This document shows, one piece after another, positions 1 to 64,000 of a DNA stretch of 64,000 nucleotides (the stretch's first letter is position 1; each line of letters begins with the position of its first letter). The notes beneath the pieces were generated by a model. That model was not told the DNA's origin and searched no databases. It worked only from the letters and a program-made list of their open reading frames with translations. The stretch covers positions 62,001-126,000 of the forward strand of contig NZ_JALKAA010000008.1 of the NCBI RefSeq assembly GCF_024171605.1, written 5' to 3'. This stretch comes from Pontibacter sp. HSC-36F09 (GTDB lineage: Bacteria > Bacteroidota > Bacteroidia > Cytophagales > Hymenobacteraceae). Made by a program: the position numbers and the translations under genes.

Positions 1-1137
1 GCCTTCGTCCACCACGTAGTCCAGTACTTCAGAACCTTCCACTTTCAGGATGGCACACTCCACGGCAAATTCGCGGGCTGCGCCCAGCATGGCTTCGTTC
101 TCGCCTTTGCCGGCAGCCAACAACTCCTGCTCTTTGCGATAGATGTCCATACCGCATCGGTACAAGGCCGACTCCACAGCATAGATGCGGATAGCCTGCT
201 CTGCCAGTTTGTAGCGTATAGCACCAAATTTCGAGATTGGCAGTTTGAACTGCTGGCGCTCGTTGGCATACTTTACCGACAGGTCTGCCACTTTTTTAGC
301 GGCACCCAAGGTAGCAGCGCAAAGCTTGATACGACCAATGTTCAGGATGTTGAAGGCAATCAGGTGACCTTTGCCGATCTCGCCCAATACGTTCTCTTTC
401 GGCACTTCGCAGTCCGACAGGAACACCTGACGCGTAGAAGAACCTTTGATACCCATCTTGTGCTCCTCGTTGCCAAGGCTCAGTCCCGGGTAGTTTTTCT
501 CTACAATGAAGCCTGTGAACTTGTCGCCGTCTACCTGCGCGAACACAATGAACACATCGGCGAAGCCAGCGTTTGTGATCCACATTTTCTGACCGTTCAG
601 GATATAATGCGTACCGGCTTCGTTCAATACGGCTTTGGTTTTGGCTGCCAGGGCATCAGAACCAGAACCTGGCTCAGTGAGGCAGTAAGCTGCCGCCCAT
701 TCGCCGGAAGTCAATTTCGGCAGATAATTCGCTTTCTGCTCATCTGTACCAAAGTACAGGATCGGCAGCATACCTATACCTGTGTGTGCCGCAAAAGCCA
801 CCGGGAAAGAGTGTCCACCTCCTACTGATTCTGTTACCAGCAGCGAAGTGTTAAAGTCCATGTTCAGACCACCGTATTGCTCCGGCATGGATACAGCAAA
901 CAGTCCAAGCTCTCCAGCCTTTTTCATCAGGCCTTCCATCAGACCTTCTTCGTGGTTGTCGAGGCGCTCGAGCAGCGGGTTCACTTCTTCGCGCACAAAG
1001 TCCAGGCAGGTCTGCGCCATCATGCGCTGCTCCTCGCTGAACTCAGCAGGTATAAACACGTCCTGCGGATTCGTTTCTTTGATCAAAAATTCACCACCGC
1101 GAACAGTGGCCTTCTTGTTATCTGTTACATTTTCCAT
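1..1137 (-). CDS. fadE: Acyl-CoA dehydrogenase, 3' end beyond window
   Basis: This is a flavoprotein acyl-CoA dehydrogenase, which introduces the trans-2 double bond in the first step of beta-oxidation. The window holds 379 codons from the ATG at 1137. The reading frame is open to the window edge, so the C-terminal part is missing; relatives of this type are about 600 residues. Family signatures are clear: the FAD/substrate motif YCLTEPGSGSDA, MWITNAGFADVF, and GIKGSSTRQVF followed by the GRIKLCAATLGAAKK helix. It is the last visible gene of a minus-strand block after fadN and fadA, 35 bp from fadA. The order fadN-fadA-fadE matches the Bacillus subtilis fadNAE operon. The family is certain; the symbol rests on this gene order. 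Confidence 0.93.
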   Translation of the reverse strand, partial: MENVTDNKKATVRGGEFLIKETNPQDVFIPAEFSEEQRMMAQTCLDFVREEVNPLLERLDNHEEGLMEGLMKKAGELGLFAVSMPEQYGGLNMDFNTSLLVTESVGGGHSFPVAFAAHTGIGMLPILYFGTDEQKANYLPKLTSGEWAAAYCLTEPGSGSDALAAKTKAVLNEAGTHYILNGQKMWITNAGFADVFIVFAQVDGDKFTGFIVEKNYPGLSLGNEEHKMGIKGSSTRQVFLSDCEVPKENVLGEIGKGHLIAFNILNIGRIKLCAATLGAAKKVADLSVKYANERQQFKLPISKFGAIRYKLAEQAIRIYAVESALYRCGMDIYRKEQELLAAGKGENEAMLGAAREFAVECAILKVEGSEVLDYVVDEG

Positions 1138-1172
1138 GGCAGATTATGATTAGTGTTTTAGGTACAGATTTT

Positions 1173-2351
1173 TTATTTGAGTAATTCATAGATGCCGGCA
1201 ACACCCTGACCGCCGCCAACGCATGCCGTCACGATGCCGTGCTTGCCACCTGTGCGGCGCAGGTCACTGAAGAGCTGCACGCTCAGCTTAGCACCAGAGC
1301 AACCTAGCGGGTGACCAAGGGCAATAGCTCCACCGTTGATGTTCAGTTTGGCTGGATCGAACTCCAGGTGACGCATTACGGCGATGGACTGAGCCGCAAA
1401 AGCCTCATTCATCTCGATCAGGTCGATATCGTTGAGGGTCATGCCAGCCATTTTCAGGGCTTTCGGAACGGCGGCGATCGGGCCCATACCCATAATGCGT
1501 GGATCCACACCGCCAGTGCCGTAGCTTACCAGGCGTGCAATTGGCTCCAGGTTAAGCTCCTTCACCATACGCTCGCTCATCACGACTACAAAGGCAGCGC
1601 CGTCAGAGGTCTGAGACGAGTTGCCGGCCGTTACCGAACCACCAGCTGCAAACACTGGCCTCAGACGCGCCAGCGCCTCCATAGACGTATCAGCGCGAGG
1701 GCCTTCATCCGTATCGACTATATAAGACCGGGTCTTCTTCTTGCCGTTCTCGTCCACGTAAGTTTCCTCTACTGTGATCGGCACGATCTGGTCTTTGAAG
1801 TAGCCGTTTTTGATGGCGTTTATTGCTTTCTGGTGTGAATTGAAGGCAAATTCGTCCTGGTCTTCACGTGAAACACTGTAGTCGGCGGCCACTGCCTCCG
1901 CTGTCAGGCCCATGCTCAGGTACCATTCCGGGTTGTGCTTGGCGATATTGTAGTTCGGCACGGTCTTCCAACCCGCCGTCGGCACCATCGACATCGACTC
2001 GGTACCGCCTGCAATAATGCAGTCGGCCATACCTGCCGCGATGCGGTTGCTGGCAATGGCAATGGTTTCCACACCCGATCCGCAGTAGCGGTTCACAGTC
2101 ATACCGGATACAGACATCGGTAGCGCCAGCAATGACACCATACGGCCGATCTGCAGGCCTTGCTCCGCTTCCGGCACGGCGTTACCCACAATGAGGTCAT
2201 CTACGCGCTCCGGGTCAAGGGCAGGCACTGAGGCCAAAAGATGTTTGATAACGTCAGCGGCCAGGTCATCGGGTCTGGTGAACCGGAAGCCGCCGCGCCC
2301 GGCTTTGCCTACTGCGCTACGAAATCCGGCTACGATATATGCGTTGTTCAT
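1173..2351 (-). CDS. fadA: Acetyl-CoA C-acyltransferase (thiolase)
   Basis: A thiolase of 392 residues that cleaves 3-ketoacyl-CoA with CoA to release acetyl-CoA, the last step of each beta-oxidation round. The nucleophilic Cys90 sits in NRYCGSG, the catalytic His347 in [11 protein letters not shown], and the second catalytic Cys377 in TACVGGGQG, all in their usual places, and the length is normal. It lies between fadN and fadE on the same strand, with a small GIY-YIG gene inserted upstream. A biosynthetic acetoacetyl-CoA thiolase is possible from sequence alone, but the fad neighbours favour the degradative role. Confidence 0.95.
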
Positions 2352-2445
2352 TTTGATGCTCTTTATAGTTTATACTATCAGCTATGATTCATTTTTATTT
2401 TGTCATCCTGTAAGGATCTTGGTAGTTAGGGTATAAGACTGTTAT

Positions 2446-2742
2446 TCAAGGATCTGCTATTAGAAATCGCAGGTATGGATTCTCACTTTTAATAAGCTCC
2501 ATTTTCTTCTCGCGATTCCAGCTTTTCAACTCCTTTTCTCTTTCTATTGCATGCTGCACGTAGGTATAGCGTTCATAGTAGAGAAGCTTGTAACAGAAGT
2601 AGCGACCTGCAAAAGTTTCAGGCTTGCCCCTGTTTTCCTTATGCTGTTCAATCCGATACACCAAGTCATTCGTCACACCCACATAAAGCACCGTTTTGCT
2701 TGGATTGGTCGTGATGTAGACAAAGTAATTATGGCTTTTCAT
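2446..2742 (-). CDS. GIY-YIG nuclease-like small protein
   Basis: A 98-residue single-domain protein of the GIY-YIG superfamily, in the group often called UPF0213 or YhbQ-like. The two signature strands are visible as YFVYITTNPSK and VLYVGVTND, followed by the helix with EQHKE and a later conserved block around ERYTYVQHAIEREKELKSW with the candidate catalytic Glu. The substrate is unknown for most members of this group. It sits between fadN (79 bp away) and fadA (94 bp away) on the same strand, so it is probably carried on the same transcript although unrelated to fatty acids. Such genes are often scattered as single inserts in Bacteroidota genomes, which suggests a late insertion into the operon. 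Confidence 0.85.
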   Translation of the reverse strand: MKSHNYFVYITTNPSKTVLYVGVTNDLVYRIEQHKENRGKPETFAGRYFCYKLLYYERYTYVQHAIEREKELKSWNREKKMELIKSENPYLRFLIADP

Positions 2743-2821
2743 AGCTAGGGCTTAACCTCCCTTTAACCAAGTTTCTTTCAGAATGACAAAGAACAAACAG
2801 CGAATGCTGCCTAAAACCACA

Positions 2822-13889: not shown

Positions 13890-15203
13890 TTATTTTTTCT
13901 TAAACAACACTTTGATCGGCACTCCTTCAAAGCCAAAATGCTTCCGGATACTGTTTTCCAGATAGCGCGTATACGGCTCCTTTACATACTGCGGCAGGTT
14001 GCAGAAAAACGCAAACGTCGGGTTGTGCGTCGGCAGTTGCGTCACGTACTTTATCTTGATGAACTTGCCTTTCACGGATGGTGGCGGGTAGCGCTCAATA
14101 TCCGGCAGGATCTTATCGTTCAGCTTTGAAGTAGAGATTTTACGGGTTTTCTGCTCGTATACCTCCATCGCCGTCCCAACAGCTTTGTGCACACGCTGCT
14201 TGGTAACTACCGATGTGAAAATGATCGGCACATACTTAATCGGGGCAATCGCTTCGAGTATCTTCTCTTCGAACTCCTTGGTGGTGTGCGTATCCTTCTC
14301 CACCATGTCCCACTTGTTCACCAGTATCACGATGCCTTTGCGGTTTTTCTCAGCCAGCGAGATAATGTTCACGTCCTGCGACTCTATACCTCTGGTGGCG
14401 TCCAGCATCACAATACACACATCGGCATCTTCCAGGGCACGCACCGAGCGCATCACCGAGTAGAATTCAATGTCCTCGCTCACTTTGCTTTTGCGGCGCA
14501 GACCAGCCGTGTCGACAATGATAAACTCTTTGCCAAAGGCGTTGTAGCGGGAGTCGATCGCGTCGCGGGTGGTACCAGCAATATCGGTTACGATGTTACG
14601 CTCCACGCCCAGCAGCATGTTTACAAATGAGGACTTGCCTACGTTCGGGCGGCCTAGCACGGCAAGTCTGGGTATACCTGCATCCGGATCTTCTGTACCA
14701 TCAGTTTTGAAGTGCTTCACCACCTCGTCCAGCAGGTCGCCGGTGCCGGAGCCACTTTGCGACGATACCGGGAATACGTCTATACCTAGGCCCAAAGCAT
14801 AAAACTCCCCCATCTGGTGGGCACGGGCATTCGTGTCGGCTTTGTTAGCCACTACATAGATGGGCTTGTCGGTGCGGCGCAGTACGTTGGCAAATTCTTC
14901 GTCCAGGCTGGTTACGCCTGCCTCTACGTCTACCATGAACAGGATCACATCGGCTTCTTTAATAGCCAGCTCTACCTGTTTGTTGATTTCTCCTTCAAAA
15001 ATATCGTCTGAACCGTGCACATAGCCACCTGTGTCGATCACGGTGAAGTACTTGCCAATCCAGTCGCCGTGGCCGTAGCTGCGGTCGCGGGTCACGCCGC
15101 TCTCGTTGTCCATAATGGCCTGGCGGCGCCCTACAAGGCGGTTAAAAAGTGTAGACTTGCCCACGTTCGGGCGGCCTACGATTGCAATGATGTTGGTTGA
15201 CAT
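13890..15203 (-). CDS. der: Ribosome biogenesis GTPase Der (EngA)
   Basis: A 437-residue protein with two consecutive GTPase domains and a C-terminal KH-like domain, the unique architecture of Der, which acts in maturation of the 50S subunit. The first domain has GRPNVGKSTLFNRLVG at its P-loop and DTGGY in switch II; the second has GRPNVGKSSFVNMLLG and DTAGLRRKSK. NKAD and NKWD are the base-specificity motifs. The length is normal. It lies 63 bp downstream of era on the same strand; the two GTPase genes may share a transcript. Confidence 0.97.
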   Translation of the reverse strand: MSTNIIAIVGRPNVGKSTLFNRLVGRRQAIMDNESGVTRDRSYGHGDWIGKYFTVIDTGGYVHGSDDIFEGEINKQVELAIKEADVILFMVDVEAGVTSLDEEFANVLRRTDKPIYVVANKADTNARAHQMGEFYALGLGIDVFPVSSQSGSGTGDLLDEVVKHFKTDGTEDPDAGIPRLAVLGRPNVGKSSFVNMLLGVERNIVTDIAGTTRDAIDSRYNAFGKEFIIVDTAGLRRKSKVSEDIEFYSVMRSVRALEDADVCIVMLDATRGIESQDVNIISLAEKNRKGIVILVNKWDMVEKDTHTTKEFEEKILEAIAPIKYVPIIFTSVVTKQRVHKAVGTAMEVYEQKTRKISTSKLNDKILPDIERYPPPSVKGKFIKIKYVTQLPTHNPTFAFFCNLPQYVKEPYTRYLENSIRKHFGFEGVPIKVLFKKK

Positions 15204-21289: not shown

Positions 21290-21394
21290 TGCGAGAATAT
21301 TTTTTTCAGCTGCAAAAGTAATAAATTAGAATTAAGGTTTAGCAGTTTATGGAATTTAGCTGCCCGGTGCATCTAATATTTAAAAAGCATCCAT

Positions 21395-21432
21395 GCGATG
21401 TTGTACTGCTCCGTTTTGCAGTACAACATCGC
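21395..21432. promoter_or_regulatory. Inverted repeat upstream of mazG
   Basis: Perfect 15-bp arms (21395-21409 and 21418-21432, GCGATGTTGTACTGC and its complement) around the 8-nt loop TCCGTTTT. It lies in the divergent glmM/mazG spacer, ending 28 bp before the mazG start, so it is not at the end of any gene. An operator or attenuator is more likely than a terminator. Confidence 0.5.
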
Positions 21433-21447
21433 CCCAGATGATTTTAT

Positions 21448-21455
21448 TATCTTTG
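21448..21455 (+). promoter_or_regulatory. Putative -7 box for mazG
   Basis: TATCTTTG, an exact TAnnTTTG match, only 5 bp before the mazG ATG at 21461. If used, the mRNA would be leaderless or nearly so. Confidence 0.4.
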
Positions 21456-21460
21456 TGTTT

Positions 21461-41959: not shown

Positions 41960-42260
41960 GGTACAGGTAATGTGGAAATTTGAAGAGGTAGAGCTGAATT
42001 AAAGCATCAACTTCTGTTCGCAGTTCATTTGTAGTGCAGTAGATCTTTTGATTTGAAATTACAGTACCGCAAAGTTCTGCTGCGCAAACTTGCAAGCCAG
42101 AGGCAAGTTCTGACCAAGGTATGGAGTAAGGTATAGGTATAGCTTTTACTTAAGCTGTACAGGTATAGCGCTATACCTGCCTGATTAAAATTACTGCCCG
42201 GAAAGATGTCAGCTCAAATTCTATTCTAAAAAATCAAGGCGAAATCCCTCCATATCATGC
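41960..42260. other. Intergenic region rich in the AGGTATA motif
   Basis: No gene seen. Between about 42128 and 42179 the heptamer occurs four times, ending in the 20-bp perfect palindrome at 42160-42179. Confidence 0.45.
42160..42179. repeat. 20-bp palindrome of two AGGTATA motifs
   Basis: CAGGTATAGC followed by GCTATACCTG, perfectly self-complementary. It is the longest palindromic form of the overrepresented motif in the window. Confidence 0.65.
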
Positions 42261-48062: not shown

Positions 48063-48066
48063 GTCC

Positions 48067-48110
48067 GGATCAGGATTCTTAGGATTGTAAAAAAGATTTT
48101 CAGGATGGAA
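48067..48110. repeat. AGGATT-type intergenic repeat
   Basis: Repeated AGGATT / AGGATG units spaced by 8-16 bp directly after the esterase gene (CAGGATTCTTAGGATTG and TTTTCAGGATGG). Similar imperfect elements are common between Bacteroidota genes. Confidence 0.4.
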
Positions 48111-48293
48111 TATGTCTTTCCAGCGTGTTCCTGGTTGTGTAAACTCGGGCTAACATGGGAATCACTCTTCCGGAATAACCACAAGTGTATAAGCCGTGGC
48201 TACAAACTGCGGCTTATGCTTAAGGTATAGCCACCACAACAGGTATAACTCTGCAACATTCCAACCATCAGCAATTCCACAACTAAAAGCCTC

Positions 48294-49010
48294 ATGAAAA
48301 AAACCGGCACGCTATACCTGATTCCGACGATACTGGCTGACGACACAGCCGACCAGGTGATTTCGCCACAAGTAAAGGACACGGTTAGTCGCCTAAGGTA
48401 TTTCATTGTGGAGAACCTGCGCACCGCCCGCCGCTTTGTTAAAAGCATCTGCCCGGAACTGGTGATCGAGCAACTCAATTTTGTGCAGGTAGACAAGGAT
48501 GCCACGCCCGCTCAGGTGCAAGCCTCTCTAAAGCCACTGCTGGAGCAAGGTATAGACGCTGGTATTATTTCGGAAGCAGGTTGCCCAGGTATAGCCGACC
48601 CCGGGGCTGAGGTGGCCAGGTATGCGCATCAGAAAGGTATACGGGTAGTGCCTTTTGCCGGTCCGTCAGCTATTCTGCTCAGCCTGATGGCCAGTGGCTT
48701 CAACGGACAGCGCTTTGCCTTCCACGGTTATCTGCCCATCGAGAAAGGGCCACGACTGCAGGCACTGCGAAACCTGGAAAAGGAGATGCTACAGCGGGAC
48801 CAGACCCAGATTTTCATGGAGACGCCCTACCGCAACAACAAACTGCTCGAAGACCTGCTGCAGACGCTCAGCGGAGGCACCCGTCTCTGCATTGCGGCCA
48901 ACATCACCTCGCCAGAGCACGAGTTCATCCAGACCAAAACGATTGCCGAATGGAAAGGCAAGCTGCCGGATATTCACAAGCAACCAGCGGTATTTCTGAT
49001 CTACAAGTAA
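48294..49010 (+). CDS. RsmI-like SAM-dependent methyltransferase
   Basis: A 238-residue methyltransferase of the tetrapyrrole-methylase fold, the family of 16S rRNA (cytidine-1402-2'-O) methyltransferase RsmI. The SAM-binding patterns GIISEAGCPGIADPGAEVAR and VVPFAGPSAILLSLMASGF are clear, as are FHGYLPIEKGPR and FMETPYRNNKLLEDLL. It lacks the usual first RsmI motif, opening instead with GTLYLIPTILADDTADQVI, which identifies a Bacteroidota paralogue group distinct from RsmI itself. The target is probably RNA but is unproven. Confidence 0.88.
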   Translation: MKKTGTLYLIPTILADDTADQVISPQVKDTVSRLRYFIVENLRTARRFVKSICPELVIEQLNFVQVDKDATPAQVQASLKPLLEQGIDAGIISEAGCPGIADPGAEVARYAHQKGIRVVPFAGPSAILLSLMASGFNGQRFAFHGYLPIEKGPRLQALRNLEKEMLQRDQTQIFMETPYRNNKLLEDLLQTLSGGTRLCIAANITSPEHEFIQTKTIAEWKGKLPDIHKQPAVFLIYK

Positions 49011-52683: not shown

Positions 52684-54114
52684 CTATCTAATATCCCAGA
52701 ATAGCTTAGTTGAGCTCGCATCACCGCCAATTGCTGACGCAGCAGCGGCATTGTTTGCCGGGTTGAGCGTTTGCTCGTTAACTGGGTAGATCAATCTTGT
52801 AGGTACGGTCAGGCCTTCTACTGGAGGAAGAAGCGTTGGAGCATCTAATCTTCTCCAGGTTATCCATGCGTCGTATCCACGGTTATAAAGTGCGATCCAC
52901 TCCTGTGTACCAATCTTCTGTCTCCAGTCGCCAGGAGCAGTCAGATAGTTTACGCTTGGCTGTAACAGGTATGCTGTAGCCTGAGCTGCTGTACCACCCC
53001 AATAGGTGATGGAAGCTGTAACAGCATTGTTGTAGTGCTCCATAGCAGTGCCACCTACATTGTAACCTCTTTCTACGGCTTCGGCAAGAAGGAATTCTAC
53101 CTCAGCGTAATCAAGCAACAGTGCTTCGAACGTAGGGTCAGCAATCTTCGGACTAACAGTCGAGAAACTAGTAAAGGTGTTAGGGAAGCCATACTTACCA
53201 CCTGCATACGCTCCATCAACCTGTGAGAAATAGAACTCTCTCCTTGGGTCATTACGCTGGTTCATAGCGTCAACCAGTGTGTTGGCAGCAACGTAGTCTT
53301 CACGAGTTGAAAGTGGACCTTTCACGTTAGAAGAGATCGGGTTGTTGTTCGGTGGTGCAGACAGGTATCCGAATGCTGCATTCTCAGCATTGCTTGATAT
53401 TACGCCACCTGCTACTGCTGATTCTGCTAAGGCTTTTGCTCTTGCATTGTCAACATCAGCTACTACCATACCTAGCTTCAGTTTAAGAGAGTTACCAAAC
53501 TTAAGCCAATTAGCCATGTTGCCACCGTAAAGAATGTCACCGCTTCCAGCAAATCCAGTTGTATTAGGATCAAGCTGTGCTACTGCTGTTTCAAGACGAG
53601 TTAGAATGTCCGCGTAAACAGTCTGTGCATCGTCGTATACAGGCAGTGCATTCTGAGAATTGAGCGCCTCAGAGTAGGGAATATCACCAAACGTGTTTAC
53701 CAGTACAGACCAGGTATATACTTCCATGATCTCGATCTGAGCCAACTGGTTTTTCTTAACGCCTTCAGCAAGCGTCGCATCTTCGGTAACGATTCTTTTT
53801 GCTTCAACAAAATCGTTCAGCACATCACGGTACAGGGTTGTCCACATGTTCTGTGGAATCAAACGTGATGTCATGTTATAGCGTGGCTCATCCAGGTACT
53901 GCGTGGATGTCCAGTGCTGCACATAAAAACGATAGTTGTTTGTGTTAACGTTTGGTGTTGTCAGCACATCTGCTAAGTTTTTGGTTGCACCCGTGAACAG
54001 GGTAACCGCCGGAACTACTGTCGCTTGTTTCTGGTCGACATTATACTCTTCCAGATCATCTACGCATGATGCCATAAACACCAGCGAGAATAAGCATATG
54101 ATAAGTTTCTTCAT
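52684..54114 (-). CDS. SusD/RagB-family outer-membrane lipoprotein, pair 1
   Basis: A 476-residue SusD-like lipoprotein of the SusD-like 2 type. The signal peptide MKKLIICLFSLVFMASC gives Cys17. The helical core includes IEIMEVYTWSVLVNTFGDIPYSEAL, and the C-terminal half has DYAEVEFLLAEAVERG and AWITWRRLDAPTLLPPVEGL. It lies 11 bp after its SusC partner. It is about two-thirds identical by eye to the SusD of pair 2, differing mostly in residues 30-60 and the loop region. Without nearby glycoside hydrolases the ligand may be a peptide or other nutrient. Confidence 0.94.
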   Translation of the reverse strand: MKKLIICLFSLVFMASCVDDLEEYNVDQKQATVVPAVTLFTGATKNLADVLTTPNVNTNNYRFYVQHWTSTQYLDEPRYNMTSRLIPQNMWTTLYRDVLNDFVEAKRIVTEDATLAEGVKKNQLAQIEIMEVYTWSVLVNTFGDIPYSEALNSQNALPVYDDAQTVYADILTRLETAVAQLDPNTTGFAGSGDILYGGNMANWLKFGNSLKLKLGMVVADVDNARAKALAESAVAGGVISSNAENAAFGYLSAPPNNNPISSNVKGPLSTREDYVAANTLVDAMNQRNDPRREFYFSQVDGAYAGGKYGFPNTFTSFSTVSPKIADPTFEALLLDYAEVEFLLAEAVERGYNVGGTAMEHYNNAVTASITYWGGTAAQATAYLLQPSVNYLTAPGDWRQKIGTQEWIALYNRGYDAWITWRRLDAPTLLPPVEGLTVPTRLIYPVNEQTLNPANNAAAASAIGGDASSTKLFWDIR

Positions 54115-54125
54115 TTTCTGATATT

Positions 54126-57100
54126 TTAGAAATTTAATTTAACGTTGAAGCCATAAGTTCTAACAGCTGGGTAAGCACCAGACTGATATCCTCTACCAGC
54201 GTTACCTGAGCTCAGACCTTCTTCAGGGTCAGAGTACTCCATGTTCTTGTGGATGATCCACAGGTTACGACCGATCAACTGCAGATCAACGCCTTTTACG
54301 AAGCCCAGGTTCCCAATAACTGACTCAGGCAAAGCATAAGAAAGAGCAACTTCTCTCAGCTTCACGAAGCTACCATCGAACACATACATGGCGCGCGGAG
54401 CACCATTGTAGTTATCAGCTGCGTAACCGTAAGGAGTCATACCGTCACCATCTTGGTTCTCAGCATAGATGTCGTTTGGAGTACCATCTTCCTTAACACC
54501 TGGCAGCTTTACACCACCACCTTCTGCAGCTGGGTCACGAGTAGGATTACCCTTATCGTTCAAGCCAGCAGTGTGGGCATACAAACCGGTTGCTTCGCCA
54601 TACCACTGGTCAAGAGAGAATACATCTCCACCCTTGCGAACATCGATCAGGAAGCCCAATGACACACCTTTGTACGTTAAGGTGTTGTTGAAACCGCCAG
54701 TCCAGTCTGGGTTTGGATTACCAATGATAAGGTCAGATCTTTCTGACAACAGGTAGTATCCGTTCTCTCCAACTGTTTTCTGACCATTCGTGTAAACGAA
54801 GTCGTTACCACGAATTACACCGTAAGGCTGGCCAATGGCAGCGTTCAGAGAAACACCACCCTGGAAAGAAGCAAGTGTCAGGTTCTCCACATCTTCGTAC
54901 AGGCTGATAACTTTGTTTCTGTTGCGAGCGAAGTTGAAGTTCATGGTCCAGGTAAGGTCACCTGTCTGAACTGGCGTTACAAAAGCAGCAATCTCAAAAC
55001 CTTTGTTTTCTACTTCACCAGCGTTAACGTAACGGTTTGTATAACCTGACGCAGCAGTCTGACTAACAGGCATGATCTGGTCAATCTGGTTTTCCTTGTA
55101 CACAGTGAAGTCGAATCCGAACAGGTTGTTGAAGAACTCAGCTTCTATACCTGCTTCCATACTCTTCTTTCTTTCTGGCTTCAGGTTAGGGTTGTTCTTC
55201 GTGCTTGGAAGCGAGAAGATCGGAGTTGAGCCAAAACCGGTTGGCTTAAAATACACATCATAGATACTCAACGGAGGAGCGTCGTTACCTACTTCTGCGT
55301 AGTTAATTCTCGCCTTACCATGTGATAACCACGATGTTTCCATAAGGTTAGAGAATATTACGTTCACACCAGCAGCTGGGTAGAAGTAAGCGTTATCGCC
55401 TTTTGGAAGTGTAGTAGACCTATCCTGACGAGCAGAAAGCTCCATGTAGTAGGTGTCTCTAAAGCCAAAGTTTACGTTGGCGAAAATACCGTCTACACCT
55501 CTGCGCCAGTAAGTTTCAGACGGAGGATTTACCGGGCTTGCTGAGTTGGAGATAGAGTACAGCTTCGGAACAACCAGACCACCGTTTGTTGCTGTAAAGA
55601 TAGATTCAGCACGGTCTCTGCGAAGGTTAGTACCTAACAAACCTGTAAAGCTCAACTCTTCAGAGATATCTTTGTTGAAGTTCAACATGAAGTCGAAGTT
55701 CGTCTCGTTGAAGTCTCTGTTATACCTGGAGTAGCTACTCAGGCCAGCACTACCAACTGCATCGCGCTCTTCCTGCATGTCACTGGTAGTGTTGAAAGCG
55801 GCTCTACCCATGGCGCTCATCCAATCAGTGATTTTGTAATTAACAGTTGCATAACCGTAGATGTTATCTCTGCTGTCATTCGCGTAGTTTTCGTACTGCG
55901 TCCAGTATGGGTTGTCAGAGTAAATAGGACCTGTGTTAGAGCTGTTCCAGTTCCAGGTAATGTTCTGGCGGTTTCTGAAGTAAGCGTCTTTCTGCTCTTT
56001 CAGATCCACGTTGGTTTGCCACCACTGGCGGAACTGCTGGTTAGGGTTAGTACCGCTATAACCAGTACCATATCTACCCATACCTACTGTACGCGTGTAG
56101 TTACCTGAAGCAGACACTGTCAGTCTTTCAGTAGCCTCGTAAGAAGCATTGAAGTTAAACATGTCTTTGTCTATTGTGGAGTTTGGCAAGTTACCTTTGA
56201 TATCGTTACGGGTGTAACCAAGGTTGAAGGTTGTCTTGTCGCTACCACCACTCAGTACCACGCTCTGGTTAGAGTTAAGGCCTGTTTCATAGAAAGCAGT
56301 AGGATCGTTTGCAGCAGCTACCCAAGGTCTTGTTTTGCCAAAGTTTGGATGAAGCGGATCGATTGCATCCCACTGGTAAACCTGCAGGTTCGGATCGAAT
56401 CTAGGACCGTACGAAGCGTCATCCTGGTATCTTACCACCGGTGCTACACCGCTGCCTAAATCTTTAGGAGCACGGAAGCCCTGGAAGTAACCACCACCAT
56501 ACTCTTTCTGGTATTTAACATAAGTGCTCTTATCGATGTTGCTCCAGGTAACACCGCTGTTCACAGCTATGTTAAGGCTATTTTTAGCACCTTTTTTGGT
56601 CGTGATCATGATCACGCCATTGGCTGCACGCGAACCGTAGAGTGCTGTTGCGGCTGCACCTTTCAGCACGTTCACAGACTCAATGTTATCAGGGTTCAAG
56701 TCGGCTGCAGCGTTACCAAAGTCAGCACCGCCACCACCAGTAGCCTGGCTAGAACCGTTGTTGTTGGCATTACTTACCGGCACACCGTCAATAACGAAAA
56801 GCGCTTGGTTGTTACCTGTAAGGGAAGAATAACCACGAATGATCACGTTAGTAGAGCCACCCATAGTGTTGTTGGTTCTGATGTCCAGACCAGCCACTTT
56901 ACCTGAGAGGGAGTTTACTACGTTTTCATTTCTGGCACGGGTGATCTGGTCTCCGCTAACTTCCTGAGCTGAATAGGCCAGCTCGTTTCTGTTACGCTCG
57001 ATACCGAGAGCGGTCACCACAACCTCACCCAACTGGCGGGTATCGGTTCCCATAGACACGTTTATGGTCGATTGGTTTCCGATTGGCCGTTCAACTGTCT

Positions 57101-57338
57101 GATAGCCGATGAAGCGAAATACAAGGGTGTTGCTGCCTTCCGGCACATTCACAGTAAAGGTACCGTCCGCCCCTGAGGCAGTACCCACTGATGTGCCTTT
57201 CACCAGGACTGTAACCCCTGGCAGCGGCTGATTGGTAGTAGCGTCTGTCACCGTACCGGTGATCGCCCTGACTTGAGCCATGGCCTCATGAATAAAGGCC
57301 GACACAAGCAGCAGGCATAGCATTAGAATTTTTTTCAT
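54126..57338 (-). CDS. SusC/RagA-family TonB-linked outer-membrane protein, pair 1
   Basis: A 1070-residue SusC-type importer. The signal peptide (1-21, ending AMA) is followed by a carboxypeptidase-regulatory-like domain (TGTVTDATTNQPLPGVTVLVKGTSVGT). Next comes the TonB-box region (LGEVVVTALGIERNRNELAYS) and the SusC plug (NSLSGKVAGLDIRTNNTMGGSTNVIIRG, VLKGAAATALYGSRAANGVIMITTKKG). A large barrel ends in FNVKLNF. It is powered by TonB/ExbB/ExbD and forms a pedal-bin complex with the SusD encoded next. It has a paralogue at 59805-63014. Very few AGGTATA heptamers occur here. Confidence 0.96.
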   Translation of the reverse strand: MKKILMLCLLLVSAFIHEAMAQVRAITGTVTDATTNQPLPGVTVLVKGTSVGTASGADGTFTVNVPEGSNTLVFRFIGYQTVERPIGNQSTINVSMGTDTRQLGEVVVTALGIERNRNELAYSAQEVSGDQITRARNENVVNSLSGKVAGLDIRTNNTMGGSTNVIIRGYSSLTGNNQALFVIDGVPVSNANNNGSSQATGGGGADFGNAAADLNPDNIESVNVLKGAAATALYGSRAANGVIMITTKKGAKNSLNIAVNSGVTWSNIDKSTYVKYQKEYGGGYFQGFRAPKDLGSGVAPVVRYQDDASYGPRFDPNLQVYQWDAIDPLHPNFGKTRPWVAAANDPTAFYETGLNSNQSVVLSGGSDKTTFNLGYTRNDIKGNLPNSTIDKDMFNFNASYEATERLTVSASGNYTRTVGMGRYGTGYSGTNPNQQFRQWWQTNVDLKEQKDAYFRNRQNITWNWNSSNTGPIYSDNPYWTQYENYANDSRDNIYGYATVNYKITDWMSAMGRAAFNTTSDMQEERDAVGSAGLSSYSRYNRDFNETNFDFMLNFNKDISEELSFTGLLGTNLRRDRAESIFTATNGGLVVPKLYSISNSASPVNPPSETYWRRGVDGIFANVNFGFRDTYYMELSARQDRSTTLPKGDNAYFYPAAGVNVIFSNLMETSWLSHGKARINYAEVGNDAPPLSIYDVYFKPTGFGSTPIFSLPSTKNNPNLKPERKKSMEAGIEAEFFNNLFGFDFTVYKENQIDQIMPVSQTAASGYTNRYVNAGEVENKGFEIAAFVTPVQTGDLTWTMNFNFARNRNKVISLYEDVENLTLASFQGGVSLNAAIGQPYGVIRGNDFVYTNGQKTVGENGYYLLSERSDLIIGNPNPDWTGGFNNTLTYKGVSLGFLIDVRKGGDVFSLDQWYGEATGLYAHTAGLNDKGNPTRDPAAEGGGVKLPGVKEDGTPNDIYAENQDGDGMTPYGYAADNYNGAPRAMYVFDGSFVKLREVALSYALPESVIGNLGFVKGVDLQLIGRNLWIIHKNMEYSDPEEGLSSGNAGRGYQSGAYPAVRTYGFNVKLNF

Positions 57339-58296
57339 TGCGCTGTTTGTTTAGGTAAGAATTAAATCAAAATAGTTAAGGTGTTATTTTATCACTTCGC
57401 TGGATAGCAGCGTCAGTTTGTTTGTTTTAAGTTAAATACTGAGCTAATGCTCGCTTTATTTGTTAATCACCTCCTTCATCTATGCTTCCCTTCACTTCCG
57501 AGATTGAATACTTTACAATAATGCCGACAAAAGCTTCTGATACAGGTTTATGTGCTTACTTATCTAAATTGCCGGAACCAACATATTCACGGGACAGAAG
57601 CACGACCCTAAACAGATAATTATCTTCAACAAAACTTGTATCAGATACCGAGAAAATTAAATTATATCAAATTATTTATCAAAATAAGGATATAGCTGTA
57701 GTTAGGACAGACAGTCTAAGCCTGCAAACTACAGTCAGATAGCCTTAAAATCAGGCTATGTAAATCGATAAATACTTAGGAGGCCGCTAGCTTTGCTGAA
57801 ATGGGTAAGCGGCAATGGGGCAAAGATAACTCTGAGAATAGTAGAGGTCTTTTCATTGTTTTAAATTGTTTAAGGTGAGAGATGCTCAATTTTAAAGAAT
57901 GTTTTCGGTTTTCACAAATATTTAATGCGTTTTTTGACCTCAAAAGCAAATCTTAAGAATTTTCACAGCGACTCATAGGTAGTTAATGTAAGCAGAATCC
58001 GAGCAAAGCAATAAAAACTCCTCCTTATACGGACTTGTATAGGAAAGGATAAATTTATTCAATACGATAACAAAAAAGTTAAATTTTTAAAACATAACGT
58101 GAACAAAATCAAGATTTTAGTCTCCCTTAGTGTCAGGTATAGCAACTTGATGAAACTGATCTATTTCTCGGTTTTTTAGTTGGCAGGCAATAAAACAGGG
58201 CTGTCTATGGATCGCAGCTAGCTTTCACTTTAAGGCTCCCGGGTATTTAATTACAATTCAACAGCTCATGATTTGAGACTTATCTGGTAGTAAAAG
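57339..58296. other. Long upstream region of SusCD pair 1
   Basis: About 960 bp of AT-rich sequence with no convincing gene on either strand. It holds a TATCTTTG box (minus strand, 57821-57828) that may start the SusCD transcript, and a weak dyad CCTTATAC / GTATAGG near 58022-58043. If that promoter is used the leader is about 480 nt. Confidence 0.4.
57821..57828 (-). promoter_or_regulatory. Putative -7 box upstream of SusC 1
   Basis: On the minus strand TATCTTTG, an exact TAnnTTTG match, 482 bp before the susC start codon. No -33 partner is clear. Confidence 0.3.
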
Positions 58297-58326
58297 AAAA
58301 ATGCCCCCGAACCCGGGGGCATTTTT
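58297..58326 (-). terminator. Terminator of SusCD pair 2
   Basis: A 12-bp perfect stem (AAAAATGCCCCC and complement) with a 6-nt loop, 45 bp past the susD stop and followed by a T-rich stretch on the minus strand. Confidence 0.85.
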
Positions 58327-58371
58327 CAATAGGTAAACTACTACTATATTAATCAGTCATGCTTTCGTCAA

Positions 58372-59793
58372 TCAATTCACATCCCAGAACAGCTTGGTAG
58401 AGCTTTCGTCTCCTCCTATGGCCGATGCCGCTGCTTCGCGGTTGTTCGGGTTCAGCGTCTGCTCATTGACAGGGTAGATCAATCTGGTTGGCACGATCAA
58501 TCCTTCTACCGGCGGTGTCAGGGTTGGTGCATCCAATCTTCTCCAGGTCAACCAAGCCTCATAACCGCGGTTAAAGAAAGCAATCCATGCCTGTTTACCT
58601 ATCTTCTGCTTCCAGTCACCAGGCGCTGTGGCGTAGTTAACTCCAGGTTGGGCCAGATAAGCAGTTGCCTCGGCTTCTGTTCCTCCCCAGTACAGAATGG
58701 ATGCCCTGATAGCTGCATTGTAATGTTCGGCGGCAGACCCGGCAATAAATCCCCTTTCTACAGCTTCAGCCAACAGAAACTCTACCTCGGCATAATCCAG
58801 CAGTACACCCGGAAAATCAAGGGCCGCTACTTTCTCACTTACGGTAGAGTTTTCTTCATAATTGTTCGCAAAGCCAACTCTGCCACCAATAAATTGTCCA
58901 TTAACATCTGTAAAGTACTGCGGTCTCCTGGGGTCATTCAGCGAATTCATCACATCAACCAATGTACTGGCTGCTATAAAGTCTTCTCTTGCTGAAAGCG
59001 GACCTGTCACGTTATCAGAAATCGGGTTGTTGTTCGGAGTTGCAGCCGTGTAGGGGAATAAGGCATTGTCTGCATTGCTTGTGAACACATTGGGCGCAGC
59101 TTCTGCTACAAGCGTTCCGGCTTTGGCGGGGTCAACATCGGCTATCACCATGGCTAACCGCAGCTTCAGAGAATTACCGAACTTCACCCACTGCGTCATG
59201 TCCCCATTGTAAAGCACATCCCCTTCTTCAAACCCAGATTCTTCAATGTTGATTAGACCAAGTGCCATATCAAGGCGCTCCAGGATATCGTTGTAAATCG
59301 CCTGGTCGTCGTCGTATACCGGCTGCGTATTGGTCGGATCAAGCGCCTCTGTGTAAGGTATATCACCAAAAGTGGTCACCAGAATAGACCAAGCGTATAC
59401 CTCCATGATCTCAATCTGAGCCAGCTGGTTGTTTTTAAGTACCGGATCAATCGTCTCATTGGCATTTAATAGCCTTTTGGCTTCTTTCAAGTCGGCCAGC
59501 ACGTCCCGGTATAGCGCATTCCAAAAGTTTTGAGGAATCAAGCGGCCAGTCATGTTGTACCTGGGCTCCTCTACATATTGCGTTGTAGCCCAGTGCTGCA
59601 CATACAACCTGATGTTGTTTGTGTTCACGTTCGGCGTGGTCAACACATCCGTCAGGCCCAACAGAGCATTGGTGAACAGCGTGGCGGGCGGGACATCGGT
59701 TGCCCGCTTCGTGTCAATATTATATTCATCCAGGTCGTCTACGCACGCTGCCATAAACACCAGCGAGAATAAGCATATGATTAATTTTTTCAT
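58372..59793 (-). CDS. SusD/RagB-family outer-membrane lipoprotein, pair 2
   Basis: A 473-residue SusD-like lipoprotein, paralogue of the one at 52684. The signal peptide is almost the same (MKKLIICLFSLVFMAAC, Cys17), and LTTPNVNTNN, EPRYNMT and AWLTWRRLDAPTLTPPVEGL are shared. Differences cluster in segments such as residues 25-50 and 180-200, where ligand-contacting loops would lie, so the two pairs may bind different nutrients. It follows its SusC by 11 bp. Confidence 0.94.
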   Translation of the reverse strand: MKKLIICLFSLVFMAACVDDLDEYNIDTKRATDVPPATLFTNALLGLTDVLTTPNVNTNNIRLYVQHWATTQYVEEPRYNMTGRLIPQNFWNALYRDVLADLKEAKRLLNANETIDPVLKNNQLAQIEIMEVYAWSILVTTFGDIPYTEALDPTNTQPVYDDDQAIYNDILERLDMALGLINIEESGFEEGDVLYNGDMTQWVKFGNSLKLRLAMVIADVDPAKAGTLVAEAAPNVFTSNADNALFPYTAATPNNNPISDNVTGPLSAREDFIAASTLVDVMNSLNDPRRPQYFTDVNGQFIGGRVGFANNYEENSTVSEKVAALDFPGVLLDYAEVEFLLAEAVERGFIAGSAAEHYNAAIRASILYWGGTEAEATAYLAQPGVNYATAPGDWKQKIGKQAWIAFFNRGYEAWLTWRRLDAPTLTPPVEGLIVPTRLIYPVNEQTLNPNNREAAASAIGGDESSTKLFWDVN

Positions 59794-59804
59794 CTCTCGT
59801 TAGT

Positions 59805-62800
59805 TTAGAAATTAAATCTGACGTTAAATCCGTAGTTTCTGAAGGCAGGGTATGCGCCAGACTGATACCCTCTGGATGCGTTGCCCGAACTCAAGCCTTC
59901 TTCCGGATCGGAGTAATCCATGTTCTTGTGGATAATCCACAGATTTCGGCCAATCAATTGTATATCGACCCCTTTGATAAAGCCAAGGTTTTCCATTAAG
60001 GTCTGTGGCAGGGCATAGGAAAGGGCAACTTCTCTCAGCTTCACGAAGCTGCCGTCGAACACGTACATGGCCCTCGGGGCCTCTATACCACCGGCAGCAT
60101 ATCCAAAGGGAGTCGCTCCATTACCGTCCGTATTCTCTGCATAGACGTCGTTCGGGGTTCCGTCCTCTTTCACGCCGGGCAGCAGTACACCACCGCCTTC
60201 AGCTACCGGAAGACGAGAAGGATTTCCCTTGTCGTTCAACCCGGCAGAATTCGGATACAGGCCCGTTGCCTCGCCATACCACTGGTCGAGCGAGAATATA
60301 TCACCGCCATGGCGCACATCTACCAGGAAGCCGAGCGACACACCTTTAAAGGTCAGCGTGTTGTTAACCCCACCGGTCCAGTCCGGGTTCGGATCACCGA
60401 TAATGTCAGACGCGTTGCCAGAGTTTATGTAGTAGCCATCGGAGTTCACGGTCTTTTGCCCATTTGTGTAGACAAAGTCAGTGCCTCTGATCACACCAAA
60501 TGGTTGCCCAACGGCAGCGTTAAGTGACACACCGCCCTGGAAAGTGGCCAGCGGTATGTTCTGAACATCCTGGTACAGGCTCTTGACCTCACTTCGGTTT
60601 CGGGCGAAGTTGATGTTGATGTTCCATGAGAAATCACCTGTCTGAACTGGCGTTGCAAAAGCAGCCACCTCAAATCCTTTGTTTTCCACCTCACCGGCAT
60701 TCACCCACTGTGCTGTGTAGCCTGTGGCGCCAGTAGTAGACACGTTGATGATTTGATCTACTGTGCTGGAACGATAGTAGGTGAAGTCAAATCCAAACAG
60801 GCTATTGAAGAAGTCTGCCTCAATACCAGCCTCAAAGCTTTTGGTTCTCTCAGGCTTCAGGTCCTCATTGTTTTTGGTATTCGGAATCGAGAAGAGAGGA
60901 ATGGAGCCTAATCCTGTTGGCTGTGTGTACACATCGAATATACTGAATGCCGGAGCACTGTTGCCTACCTCAGCATAGTTTACCCGAAGCTTACCCCCTG
61001 ACAGAAATGGTAGCTGGAGGAGGTTGGAGAATACCACGTTTCCAGCTATAGAAGGATAGAAGTAGGAGTTGTCTCCTTCTGGCAATGTTGTGGATTTATC
61101 CCGACGGGCAGAAAGCTCGAGGAAGTAGGTTTCTCTGAAGCCAATGTTTGCATTCGCAAAAATGCCGTCAACACCTATACGCTCAAAGTTTTCAATAGGC
61201 GCCGTGATGGGGTTTACTGAGTTTGACAGCGTGTATAACCTTGGCACGACAAGACCACCGTTGGTAGTCGCTCTAATATCTCTGAGCCGGTTTCTGCGCA
61301 GGTTGGTTCCAATTAAACCATTCAGGCTAATATCTTCTGTAAGATCTCTGTTGAAGTTTAAGAAGAGGTCATAGTTGGTTTCATTGAATTCCCTGTCATA
61401 TCGCTCAAACTCACTCACATCGGCACTTCCTACGGCTACACGCTCTTCCTGCATATCTGTGGTTGTGTTATAAGTGACTCTGCCCATTAAGTTTAACCAG
61501 TCTGTAAACTTGTAGGTAGCAGTTACATAACCATAGAAGTTGTCTCTGGCGTCGTTAGAGTAGTTCTCGAATCTGGTCCAGTAGGGGTTATCAGAGTAGA
61601 TAGGACCTGTGTTTGCCGCATTCCAGTTCCAGGTAATGTTCTGGCGGTTTCTGAAATAAGCCTCCTCCTGCTCTTCAATATCTACGTTGGTCTGCCACCA
61701 TTGCCTGAACTGCTGGTTAGGGTTACGGCCCTGGTAGCCTGTGCCATACCTACCTACACCCACTGTGCGCGAGTAATTGGCAGAAGCACTAACCGATATC
61801 TTTTCAGTTGCCTCAAAAGAACCCGTAAAGTTAAACAGGTCTTTATCGAGCGTTGCATTGGGCAGGTTTCCTTTTATATCGTTTCGGGTATAACCTACAT
61901 TGAAGGTAGTCTTATCGCCGCCGCCACTGATCATGATACTCTGGTTAGAGTTAACACCGGTCTCATAAAAATCACGGGGGTCGTTTTCAGCAGCTAACCA
62001 AGGCCTTGTCTGTCCAAAGTTCGGGTGAAGCGGATCAATAGCGTCCCATTGGTATACCTGTAGGTTCGGATCGAATCTTGGACCATAAGAAGCATCATCC
62101 TGAAAACGAACTACCGGCGCAACCCCACTGCCTAAGTCAGATGATGTACGGAACCCCTGGAAGTAGCCCGCCCCATACTCTTTCTGGTAGTCAACATAAG
62201 TGCTCCTGTCCATTGTGCTCCAGGTAACACCACTGTTAACTGTAATATTCAGGCTATTTTTTGCGCCTTTTTTGGTCGTGATCATGATAACGCCGTTGGC
62301 CGCGCGCGAACCATACAGCGCTGTTGCTGCTGCCCCCTTCAGTACGTTCACAGACTCAATGTTATCAGGGTTCAAGTCTGCAGCAGCGTTACCAAAGTCA
62401 GTACCCGTCCTGCCAGACTGCTGGTCAGCGGTATTGGTATTGGCATTACTTACCGGTACACCGTCAATAACGAACAGTGCCTGGTTATTGCCAGTAATGG
62501 ATTTGTTACCGCGAATAATCACGTTAGTAGAGCCACCCATAGTATTGTTGGAACGAATATCAAGACCGGCCACTTTACCTGAGAGGGAGTTCACAAAGTC
62601 GGCAGGTCTTGTACGTGTTATCTGTTCACCACTCACCTGCTGGGCAGAATAAGCCAGCTCATTCTTGTTTCGTTCGATACCCAAAGCTGTTACCACTACC
62701 TCGCCCAGTTGTTCTGCGGCCAGAGGGAGTGCTACATTAATAGAAGTAGCGTCTCCAATGGGACGCTCAGTAGTACGATAACCGATAAACCGGAATTCTA

Positions 62801-63014
62801 AGGTAGTGCCGCCGTCTGGGACCGTTATAGAGTAGTTTCCATCGGCACCTGTGGCGGTACCAACGGTTGTTCCCTTCACCAGTACTGCTACCCCTGGTAA
62901 AGGCTGATTTGTGGAAGCGTCCGTTACATTGCCGGTAATGACCCTTCCCTGGGCCAGCACCTGTAGCTGCAATGCAAAGATCAGTAAGAAGCTTATTGCT
63001 AGAAGTTTTTTCAT
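59805..63014 (-). CDS. SusC/RagA-family TonB-linked outer-membrane protein, pair 2
   Basis: A 1069-residue SusC-type importer with the same architecture as the pair-1 protein: signal peptide ending VLA, regulatory-like domain (TGNVTDASTNQPLPGVAVLVKGTTVGT), TonB-box region (LGEVVVTALGIERNKNELAYS), plug and barrel ending FNVRFNF. The plug is almost identical to that of pair 1 while barrel loops differ more (for example after SNANTNTADQQSGRTG). The two pairs appear to have arisen by tandem duplication. Right of it lies feoB, which is not obviously linked. Confidence 0.96.
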   Translation of the reverse strand: MKKLLAISFLLIFALQLQVLAQGRVITGNVTDASTNQPLPGVAVLVKGTTVGTATGADGNYSITVPDGGTTLEFRFIGYRTTERPIGDATSINVALPLAAEQLGEVVVTALGIERNKNELAYSAQQVSGEQITRTRPADFVNSLSGKVAGLDIRSNNTMGGSTNVIIRGNKSITGNNQALFVIDGVPVSNANTNTADQQSGRTGTDFGNAAADLNPDNIESVNVLKGAAATALYGSRAANGVIMITTKKGAKNSLNITVNSGVTWSTMDRSTYVDYQKEYGAGYFQGFRTSSDLGSGVAPVVRFQDDASYGPRFDPNLQVYQWDAIDPLHPNFGQTRPWLAAENDPRDFYETGVNSNQSIMISGGGDKTTFNVGYTRNDIKGNLPNATLDKDLFNFTGSFEATEKISVSASANYSRTVGVGRYGTGYQGRNPNQQFRQWWQTNVDIEEQEEAYFRNRQNITWNWNAANTGPIYSDNPYWTRFENYSNDARDNFYGYVTATYKFTDWLNLMGRVTYNTTTDMQEERVAVGSADVSEFERYDREFNETNYDLFLNFNRDLTEDISLNGLIGTNLRRNRLRDIRATTNGGLVVPRLYTLSNSVNPITAPIENFERIGVDGIFANANIGFRETYFLELSARRDKSTTLPEGDNSYFYPSIAGNVVFSNLLQLPFLSGGKLRVNYAEVGNSAPAFSIFDVYTQPTGLGSIPLFSIPNTKNNEDLKPERTKSFEAGIEADFFNSLFGFDFTYYRSSTVDQIINVSTTGATGYTAQWVNAGEVENKGFEVAAFATPVQTGDFSWNININFARNRSEVKSLYQDVQNIPLATFQGGVSLNAAVGQPFGVIRGTDFVYTNGQKTVNSDGYYINSGNASDIIGDPNPDWTGGVNNTLTFKGVSLGFLVDVRHGGDIFSLDQWYGEATGLYPNSAGLNDKGNPSRLPVAEGGGVLLPGVKEDGTPNDVYAENTDGNGATPFGYAAGGIEAPRAMYVFDGSFVKLREVALSYALPQTLMENLGFIKGVDIQLIGRNLWIIHKNMDYSDPEEGLSSGNASRGYQSGAYPAFRNYGFNVRFNF

Positions 63015-63520
63015 CGCTTTCTGGATTTAGTAAAAATCAGAGTATGGCTGGCTTATAGAATTATAGCCAATTATCCAGCGCCAGGATAGCGTCTGTTCAG
63101 AAGAAGGTAGATGTTGGTTCCCGGTGCCGCTAGGCAGCCGTTCAGTTGTAGGCGTAATATACCGGTGCCAGAGTGGCATCCGTAAAGTGGAGATATTTTA
63201 ATGATTGCAGCTAATCAGACCCTTTCAACATAGCTTGCCAGGAACCCACCACATTCGGTCACTGCATTTATTCCTGCGCCATATGTTATACCTATCGTGC
63301 AGAATATTTGTTATGACAATTTTAATTTAATTCTAATATTTTTAGTCACAAAGCAAATATTAAAAGTCAAATAATACAAAACCAAGTGTAACTAACTTCC
63401 TTTTATGATTTTCTGAAGTTTGCTCATTCTCTACCAAAATAGCAGTATCTGATGCGATACTCCCCAAACAACCAGGCGAAGTGAATAAGAGCGCTGCTTC
63501 AGACATAAAAACAAAAAGCC
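63015..63520. other. Intergenic region between SusC 2 and feoB
   Basis: About 500 bp without a convincing gene. It serves as the upstream region of SusCD pair 2; no clean TAnnTTTG box was found on the minus strand. One TATACCT motif lies near 63287. Confidence 0.4.
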
Positions 63521-63524
63521 CGCT

Positions 63525-63553
63525 CCTTTCGGCAGCGGGCTTTCCGGTTATCT
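63525..63553 (-). terminator. Terminator of feoB
   Basis: A 10-bp perfect stem (AAAGCCCGCT and complement) with a 9-nt loop and a T-tract on the minus strand, 13 bp past the stop at 63566. Confidence 0.85.
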
Positions 63554-63565
63554 TTAAGTCTTGGC

Positions 63566-64000
63566 TTAGCTCATCAGTTGGAAAACGGCAAAAGCGGACA
63601 CGTACGCCAGTCCCGTCATGTAGACCAGCTGCGCCAGCGGCCACATCCAGCTCTTCGTTTCGCGGCGCACAATGGCCAGCGTACTGATGCACTGCATAGC
63701 GAAGGCGTAGAAGATCAGCAGCGAGAAGGCTCTGGCCGGCGTGAAGAACGGATTGCCATCGGCGTCTTTCTCTGACATCAGCTTGTCTTTTATCGTCGTC
63801 ACGTTCTCTTCTTCGCCTATACTGTAGATCGTCGAGATGGTGCCGACAAACACCTCGCGGGCAGCAAAGGAGGTCAGCAGGGCTATACCTATCTTCCAGT
63901 CGTAGCCTAATGGACGGATGGCCGGCTCGATGGCATGACCGAACTTTCCAGCATAGCTCGACTCCAGTTGGTAAGAGGAGATCAGGTTATTTGTTTGCTC
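63566..64000 (-). CDS. feoB: Ferrous iron transport protein B, C-terminal part
   Basis: The C-terminal 144 residues of FeoB; the gene continues beyond the right edge, where the N-terminal GTPase domain would be. The visible part has the conserved GYDWKIGIALLTSFAAREVFVGTISTIYS region, typical of the FeoB membrane domain around the second gate motif, followed by TPARAFSLLIFYAFAMQCISTLAIVRRET, and ends in a last membrane helix (LVYMTGLAYVSAFAVFQLMS). FeoB imports Fe(II) across the inner membrane. The reading frame runs open to 64000. It ends at a terminator facing the SusCD pair. Confidence 0.92.
   Translation of the reverse strand, partial: EQTNNLISSYQLESSYAGKFGHAIEPAIRPLGYDWKIGIALLTSFAAREVFVGTISTIYSIGEEENVTTIKDKLMSEKDADGNPFFTPARAFSLLIFYAFAMQCISTLAIVRRETKSWMWPLAQLVYMTGLAYVSAFAVFQLMS

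Follow-up and report, generated by a model that had tools for sequence, protein, structure and literature searches.

A chromosome-wide ten-base word with clade-specific dialects in Pontibacter, possibly a DNA-uptake-type self-recognition signal

The 64-kb stretch analysed here (positions 62,001 to 126,000 of contig NZ_JALKAA010000008.1; hereafter the window) belongs to the genome of Pontibacter sp. HSC-36F09 (4.43 Mb in 19 contigs; the source genome, G000), whose Der protein is 99% identical to that of P. amylolyticus, the identity being 97% over ten concatenated proteins. Along with the der gene, a MazG-ExbB/ExbD-TonB region and two SusC/RagA-type receptor genes (Table 1), the window contains many copies of a short word, AGGTATA and its complement TATACCT, which the original prediction had reported as a heptamer about 14-fold overrepresented, with 56 and 69 copies on the plus strand. 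We recounted 56 and 70, that is 126 copies or about 2 per kb, where base composition predicts 8.5 copies and a first-order Markov model 5.4, giving a 14.9-fold and a 23-fold excess, respectively. It is the top heptamer of the window, the next non-overlapping one being CTTCTTC with 43 copies. The whole source genome holds 4719 and 4563 copies on the two strands, 9282 in all or about one per 477 bp, against 278 (132 and 146) for the reversed control word.

Table 1. Location of the word and of the genes and regions mentioned in the text, in window coordinates.
Feature	Position	Strand	Details
AGGTATA/TATACCT copies	1..64000	56 on +; 70 on + as TATACCT	Extended consensus cAGGTATAGC
der (GTPase EngA)	13890..15203	-	4 motif copies; TIGR03594, 539.6 bits (cut-off 306.7)
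Longest motif desert of the window	21078..25704		MazG, ExbB, ExbD, ExbD and most of a TonB-like gene (Pfam)
Local cluster	25705..25851		TATACCT at 25705, 25789, 25807, 25826 and 25845; AGGTATA at 25804
Local cluster, four copies	42129..42178	42129, 42135 and 42161 on +; 42172 on -	Two are full 10-mers
Densest kilobase of the window	47801..48800		10 copies
SusC/RagA region	52684..63014	-	Two TonB-linked receptor genes
SusD-like gene	52684..54114	-	After the SusC/RagA gene at 54126..57338
SusC/RagA receptor gene	54126..57338	-	
SusC/RagA receptor gene	59805..63014	-	Followed by a 473-aa gene in the position of the SusD-like gene

We examined the shape of the word in a 464-kb sample of the source genome, made up of the window and 20 other stretches. 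Its roughly 945 copies give the consensus cAGGTATAGC, in which the preceding base is C in 48% of cases, the following base is G in 56% and T in 5%, and the next one is C in 43%. T is thus strongly avoided after TATA, and nothing is conserved beyond about 10 bp. Called genes contain 593 copies, compared with 62.5 after a synonymous codon shuffle within each gene (9.5-fold), and non-called sequence contains 332, compared with 16.5 under a first-order (dinucleotide) model (20-fold). The ratio between gene and spacer densities is rough, because our own gene caller under-calls (73% coding, with no genes in stretch L019) and leaves some genes in the non-called sequence. The in-gene copies occur in all frames, 303 sense and 290 antisense (28.6 and 33.9 after the shuffle), with a preference for certain frames such as GGT-ATA (Gly-Ile). 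Residues at 23 in-gene copies are 76% identical to those of five motif-poor relatives, compared with 80% elsewhere, a difference that is not significant; many copies therefore use synonymous room. Copies lie in genes of many kinds and in spacers, in line with the original prediction. Because the codon shuffle is far exceeded and the excess extends over the whole genome, we found neither of the outcomes that had been named as fatal to the prediction, counts explained by codon usage and enrichment confined to the window.

The copies are spaced in an over-dispersed manner (coefficient of variation 1.15), with short-range clustering and 12 gaps of more than 2.5 kb in the 464 kb. Copies lying close together mostly share an orientation and overlap, at 6 and 13 bp, or form the overlapping palindrome at 3 bp; spaced inverted pairs are not the pattern of close copies, terminators themselves not being tested. 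The near equality of the strands, from which a polar signal such as Chi or KOPS (FtsK-orienting polar sequences) had been argued against, was borne out: the 56:70 split in the window is compatible with parity (binomial p = 0.25), and no polarity was found when copies were assigned by GC-skew strand, either in the source-genome pieces (492 vs 454) or in 20 spread stretches of genome G085, a single contig of 4.34 Mb (515 vs 508). We therefore rejected a polar signal. The longest desert of the window is in part also low in GC, and codon choice is possibly the constraint there. Motif density is also low across the SusC/RagA region. Outside the window, between about 67241 and 74945 of contig C1, AGGTATA recurs each 231-234 bp, with a few double steps, in about 31 copies; this gene or array has a repeat of about 78 residues with one motif in most units.

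We then extended the counts to the genus. The der gene was used to fetch 80 named relatives for a map of the word, and de novo word counts in relatives brought out two further words, AAGTATA and AACTATA (hereafter the AGG, AAG and AAC dialects). When the three were counted in 50 Pontibacter genomes, 39 were motif-rich, with at least 2000 copies per strand of at least one word, and 11 were motif-poor. Among the motif-rich genomes, 12 use AGG, 22 AAG and 5 AAC, the last reaching a density of one copy per 330 bp in G085. Some are mixed: within the 22 AAG genomes, G033 (AAG 3810+3742, AAC 4096+4022) and G058 also carry more than 2900 AAC copies per strand and G043 carries 1751+1780, and the AAC genome G018 carries 2529+2581 AAG copies. 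All three dialects fit the pattern A[A/G][G/C]TATA, sharing the TATA core and departing from one another at one or two positions, and the flanks shift with the dialect (cAGGTATAGC, aAAGTATRaa and mAACTATAG). Beyond one base before and two bases after the heptamer, the AGG and AAG logos show no distinct column. Palindromic 10-mers are a minority, 15 among 946 AGG copies and 9 among 830 AAG copies; in the AAC dialect the palindrome AACTATAGTT is in excess, with 98 in G085 among 1023 copies, two per palindrome. A weaker word, GGTATAAA, occurs 949+898 times in motif-poor G115 (72+62 for its reversed control) and 11 times in locus L077 of P. sp. E15-1, where 1.1 is expected; it may be a fourth dialect or what is left of one. 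The heptamer of the original prediction is thus a real word, but one that is about 10 bp wide with preferred flanks and that has three relatives which the prediction missed. Outside the genus, where the AGG and AAG words were counted, we found no comparable enrichment: in the family, 150 genomes from other genera gave at most about a 3-fold excess of AGG over its control, and in the order, 285 genomes from outside Pontibacter gave at most about a 2.5-fold excess of AAG.

The distribution of the dialects follows the phylogeny. In a quick LG+G4 tree of 45 rows, built from up to 10 concatenated proteins after L082 and L100 were dropped, the named loci (about 12-21 kb) were labelled by dialect, or as having none when not one of the three words reached 1 copy per kb. 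The labels change 7 times over 5 labels, compared with 24.8 times when shuffled. AGG forms one clade (support 100), and the species bearing AAC are likewise grouped together (support 96), three of them carrying AAG as well. AAG is widespread on the tree. P. harenae, P. silvestris, P. qinzhouensis, P. beigongshangensis and Botryobacter ruber, all with less than 1 copy per kb, fall outside the motif-bearing group, which is joined by a branch with support 84, and the motif-poor P. ummariensis, P. diazotrophicus and P. sp. E15-1 branch from within the AAG species. Most simply, this reads as a single gain of AAG, which is probably the ancestral dialect, followed by two derived dialects and one loss, change counts alone not fixing the direction or gain versus loss.

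Dialects also replace one another at the same sites. We compared aligned sites across 34 loci (11 AGG, 13 AAG, 5 AAC or mixed and 5 motif-poor), from which L052, L056, L063, L070, L073, L079 and the window were left out; the species pairs in this set are not independent of one another. Of 3493 species-pair sites with AGG, 609 (17.4%) read AAGTATA in AAG species, compared with 3.2% for the same substitution in controls and 4.3% in motif-poor species, and 157 of the 3493 retain the exact AGG word (4.5%, vs 19% for controls). In the reverse direction, AAG sites read AGG in AGG species at 609 of 3137 sites (19.4%), the control being 3.1%. Within the AGG clade, 50-81% of sites persist, compared with 26-58% of control heptamers, in 36 of the 40 loci L041-L080 set against the window (L052, L056 and L063, shorter than 15 kb, were skipped and L079 excluded).

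The word is close to background on plasmid-like contigs and in a defence island. Plasmid-like contigs of G073, G052, G129 and G087 carry 0-0.30 AAGTATA per kb, compared with 0.95-2.3 on large contigs of the same genomes; they were called plasmid-like from their size, one also from mobility genes, and the counts cover 40 kb each on three of them and the fourth in full (5.9 kb). That of G129 encodes a relaxase, TraG and TraM. In G085, AACTATA is poorly represented in four of the 20 stretches (L170 with 19 copies, L172 with 13, L173 with 5 and L175 with 6), the other sixteen holding 35-82. L173 (3010001-3030000) holds a defence island, encoding AIPR, Z1, PRTase-CE and ORC-CDC6-like proteins, and has hardly any copies of the host motif over its 20 kb; L175 encodes an RHS-repeat protein. 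L172 holds the vertically inherited SecY/L2/EF-G region, where scarcity probably reflects codon constraint. In the source genome, 2-kb bins below 44% GC hold about 2.2 copies, compared with 4.7 in bins of at least 50% GC, the opposite of what composition predicts for an AT-rich word, which should be commoner there; one such low-GC region is a glycosyltransferase locus.

What could such a word be? By analogy, the closest match in behaviour is the DNA uptake sequence (DUS) dialects of the Neisseriaceae. In PMC3630211, DUS are described as words of about 10 bp in thousands of copies, with single-base dialects that follow phylogeny around a constant core and with some members lacking them; two dialects are found in nearly equal numbers in Simonsiella muelleri, and Kingella oralis has 5918 kingDUS in 2.4 Mb. 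The Pontibacter word shares its width, its abundance, dialects that differ by one or a few bases and agree with the phylogeny around a constant core, and the existence of motif-poor members. The mixed genome G033 parallels S. muelleri, and the densities of G000 and G085 (one copy per 477 and per 330 bp, respectively) lie in the K. oralis range. Other traits of an uptake signal are also present, since the word is enriched on both strands, is non-palindromic save partly in AAC, and is depleted on plasmid-like contigs, in a defence island and in atypical DNA. The differences are an unrelated sequence, with a TATA instead of a CTG core, a Bacteroidota host, the lack of a convincing pilus ATPase (see below) and the overlapping rather than inverted arrangement of close copies. 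The uptake signal sequences (USS) of the Pasteurellaceae are likewise short self words present in both orientations with variants between clades, but they have AT-rich outer tracts, which the AGG and AAG logos lack, and here again there is no type IV pilus evidence. To our knowledge, uptake-signal dialects are known only from these two families, both of which have type IV pili. We favour, tentatively and at somewhat below even odds, the reading that the Pontibacter word is a chromosome-wide DNA-uptake-type self-recognition signal with a sequence-specific reader, a role that the original prediction had listed among others.

Several observations weigh against this reading, above all those on the reader. 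We judged candidates by their presence over the 50 genomes and found no reader among them. The competence translocator ComEC is present in 50/50, as an uptake system requires, but it is not discriminating and does not track the word, because all 11 motif-poor genomes have it too; moreover, it carries an in-frame stop in G046 (AGG-rich; contig C76, 160505-161305) and in G089 (AAG; contig C1, 2771217-2771876), either a recent loss or an assembly error. A convincing PilB/PilT-type ATPase (PF00437) was found in 0/50, partial matches reaching about 25 bits at most and 3/50 lying just over the cut-off. The known DUS/USS route is therefore apparently absent, as judged from the ATPase search (pilins not having been searched for), and we do not file the word as a DUS or USS member; it is a candidate uptake signal known from sequence. 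DUF5689 is a domain of an essential transformation factor of Riemerella anatipestifer (PMC8459023); we rejected this surface factor, which is present in 22/50 genomes, missing from G000 and does not track the motif-rich or motif-poor state. In the open-licence literature we found no report of transformation in Pontibacter. The switching is also uneven: in AGG species, AAG sites have kept AAG as often as control words have been kept (17.6% vs 18.3%), meaning that there is no specific purge of the old word, in-place change from AAG to AAC is weak (33 of 787 sites, 4.2%, control 1.0%), and none from AGG to AAC was seen at 893 aligned sites. In addition, motif-poor genomes are not motif-free (relative to the reversed control, AGG reaches, for example, 5.7x in G115 and 3.9x in G075, and AAG 4.0x in G131), low-GC bins keep about 5 times the composition expectation and are thus reduced rather than free, and strand asymmetry correlates weakly with GC skew over 21 source-genome pieces (r = 0.31).

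Among the other explanations, one close to the highly iterated palindrome HIP1 of cyanobacteria has to be considered. In Elhai's model, an orphan DNA methyltransferase together with biased mismatch repair creates and keeps the word, with no uptake involved. PMC4390886 describes HIP1 as a palindrome tied to orphan methyltransferases and low or nearly absent in some relatives, and reports that exceptional cyanobacteria lost it and gained wholly different HIP words. The genome-wide placement in Pontibacter, the poor relatives and the replacement words resemble this, as does the palindrome excess of the AAC dialect, and matches to N6-type methyltransferases are widespread (PF02384 in 50/50 genomes, PF07669 in 47/50). 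However, AGG and AAG are not palindromic, and the most frequent variants read at the sites in other dialects often depart from the word by at least two bases. Nor does any of the three methyltransferase families that we examined follow the presence of the word: PF01555, rejected as a necessary factor, is missing from 19/50 genomes, 13 of them motif-rich, and the PF02384 and PF07669 matches are patchy and lie in genes of many sizes, with weak PF02384 matches in the motif-rich G079 and G105 (best 7e-5 and 1.5e-4 among the matches listed). HIP1, which the original prediction gave as the closest parallel, was a fair first comparison, but the dialects, the width of about 10 bp, the non-palindromic AGG and AAG and the scarcity on plasmid-like contigs fit DUS better; likewise the methylation role it proposed is unsupported by these three families. 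We consider a HIP1-like origin unlikely. A somewhat smaller chance goes to a binding site of a sequence-specific nucleoid or segregation protein whose preference drifts between clades. It would suit a chromosome-wide, non-polar word that is scarce on plasmid-like contigs, and a regional structure is possible, as the four poorest stretches of G085 all lie within 2.37-3.46 Mb; yet the adjoining L171 and L174 are rich, the over-dispersed spacing is not regular, and the roughly 10,000 sites of each dialect change would be hard to replace without drive.

Chi and KOPS are short over-represented chromosomal words, polar along replichores. Chi words differ between species, and a Chi-like recombination hot-spot signal for an AddAB/RecBCD-type enzyme would account for a dense, core-genome-specific word of 7-10 bp. 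Chi is strand-biased in well-studied species and its known densities are far below that of this word, and we found no such bias by GC skew in either G000 or G085, which makes this explanation improbable. Finally, the word could result from codon or dinucleotide usage, or it could stem from a family of repeats. The frame preference of in-gene copies and the contig C1 array, with a copy about every 234 bp, point that way; but the synonymous shuffle, the antisense copies and the non-called sequence rule out a codon or dinucleotide artefact, the flanks are dissimilar beyond about 10 bp, which rules out a repeat family or mobile element, and another word is used in related clades whose GC content is similar. 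We give this explanation hardly any weight. A signal read in RNA is also unlikely in view of the sense and antisense counts of the source genome. The AAG and AAC sets are biased to sense (210 vs 140, p = 0.0002, and 52 vs 35), as are their codon shuffles (37 vs 14 and 11 vs 4).

Returning to the uptake-type signal, we suggest how the word could have spread. Fragments with the ~10-bp word would be favoured by a receptor that recognises this DNA sequence, probably periplasmic or exposed on the cell surface, which would belong to a type-IV-pilus-independent transformation system of Bacteroidota; R. anatipestifer is reported to transform by unique machinery (PMC8459023). In Pontibacter, fragments carrying the word might enter or recombine more often, so that each new copy would spread, and uptake with RecA-dependent replacement would multiply the word by molecular drive, with weak selection per site. 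A change in receptor specificity would then start a new dialect, which would overwrite the old one. Drive is the usual kind of explanation for DUS and USS, and it appears the easiest source here, given the density of the word, its weak retention at each site, its in-place switching and its scarcity on plasmid-like contigs. A more specific proposal, about which we are more hesitant still, is that Pontibacter practises self-specific uptake without type IV pili through a new receptor class, whose specificity would have changed at least twice in the genus. After each change, thousands of chromosomal signals would have been converted one site at a time, and the mixed AAG/AAC species would be in mid-change. 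The motif-poor genomes are larger (mean 5.71 Mb for 11 genomes, vs 4.59 Mb for the 39 motif-rich ones; p = 3.5e-6 ignoring phylogeny and with rounded sizes), as would be expected if transformation removes mobile DNA, an observation that we did not use as evidence.

The original prediction knew of no earlier description, and among the titles and abstract starts listed from the open-licence literature (subscription papers and preprints being outside this scope) none describes an iterated word in Pontibacter or Hymenobacteraceae. Whatever its role, the word, with its dialects that switch in place, makes a strong case for testing how iterated words arise, a question raised by HIP1, and the genus would offer a series, with a probable ancestral dialect, two derived ones, mixed genomes and losses, in which the rewriting of a genome-wide signal can be followed. 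In Pontibacter genomes, the word also offers an easy means of spotting foreign DNA. If the uptake reading is correct, a dialect system this strong in Bacteroidota would be another, independent case of uptake-signal dialects, and it would give a direct handle on DNA uptake in this phylum, where the outer-membrane step is poorly understood.

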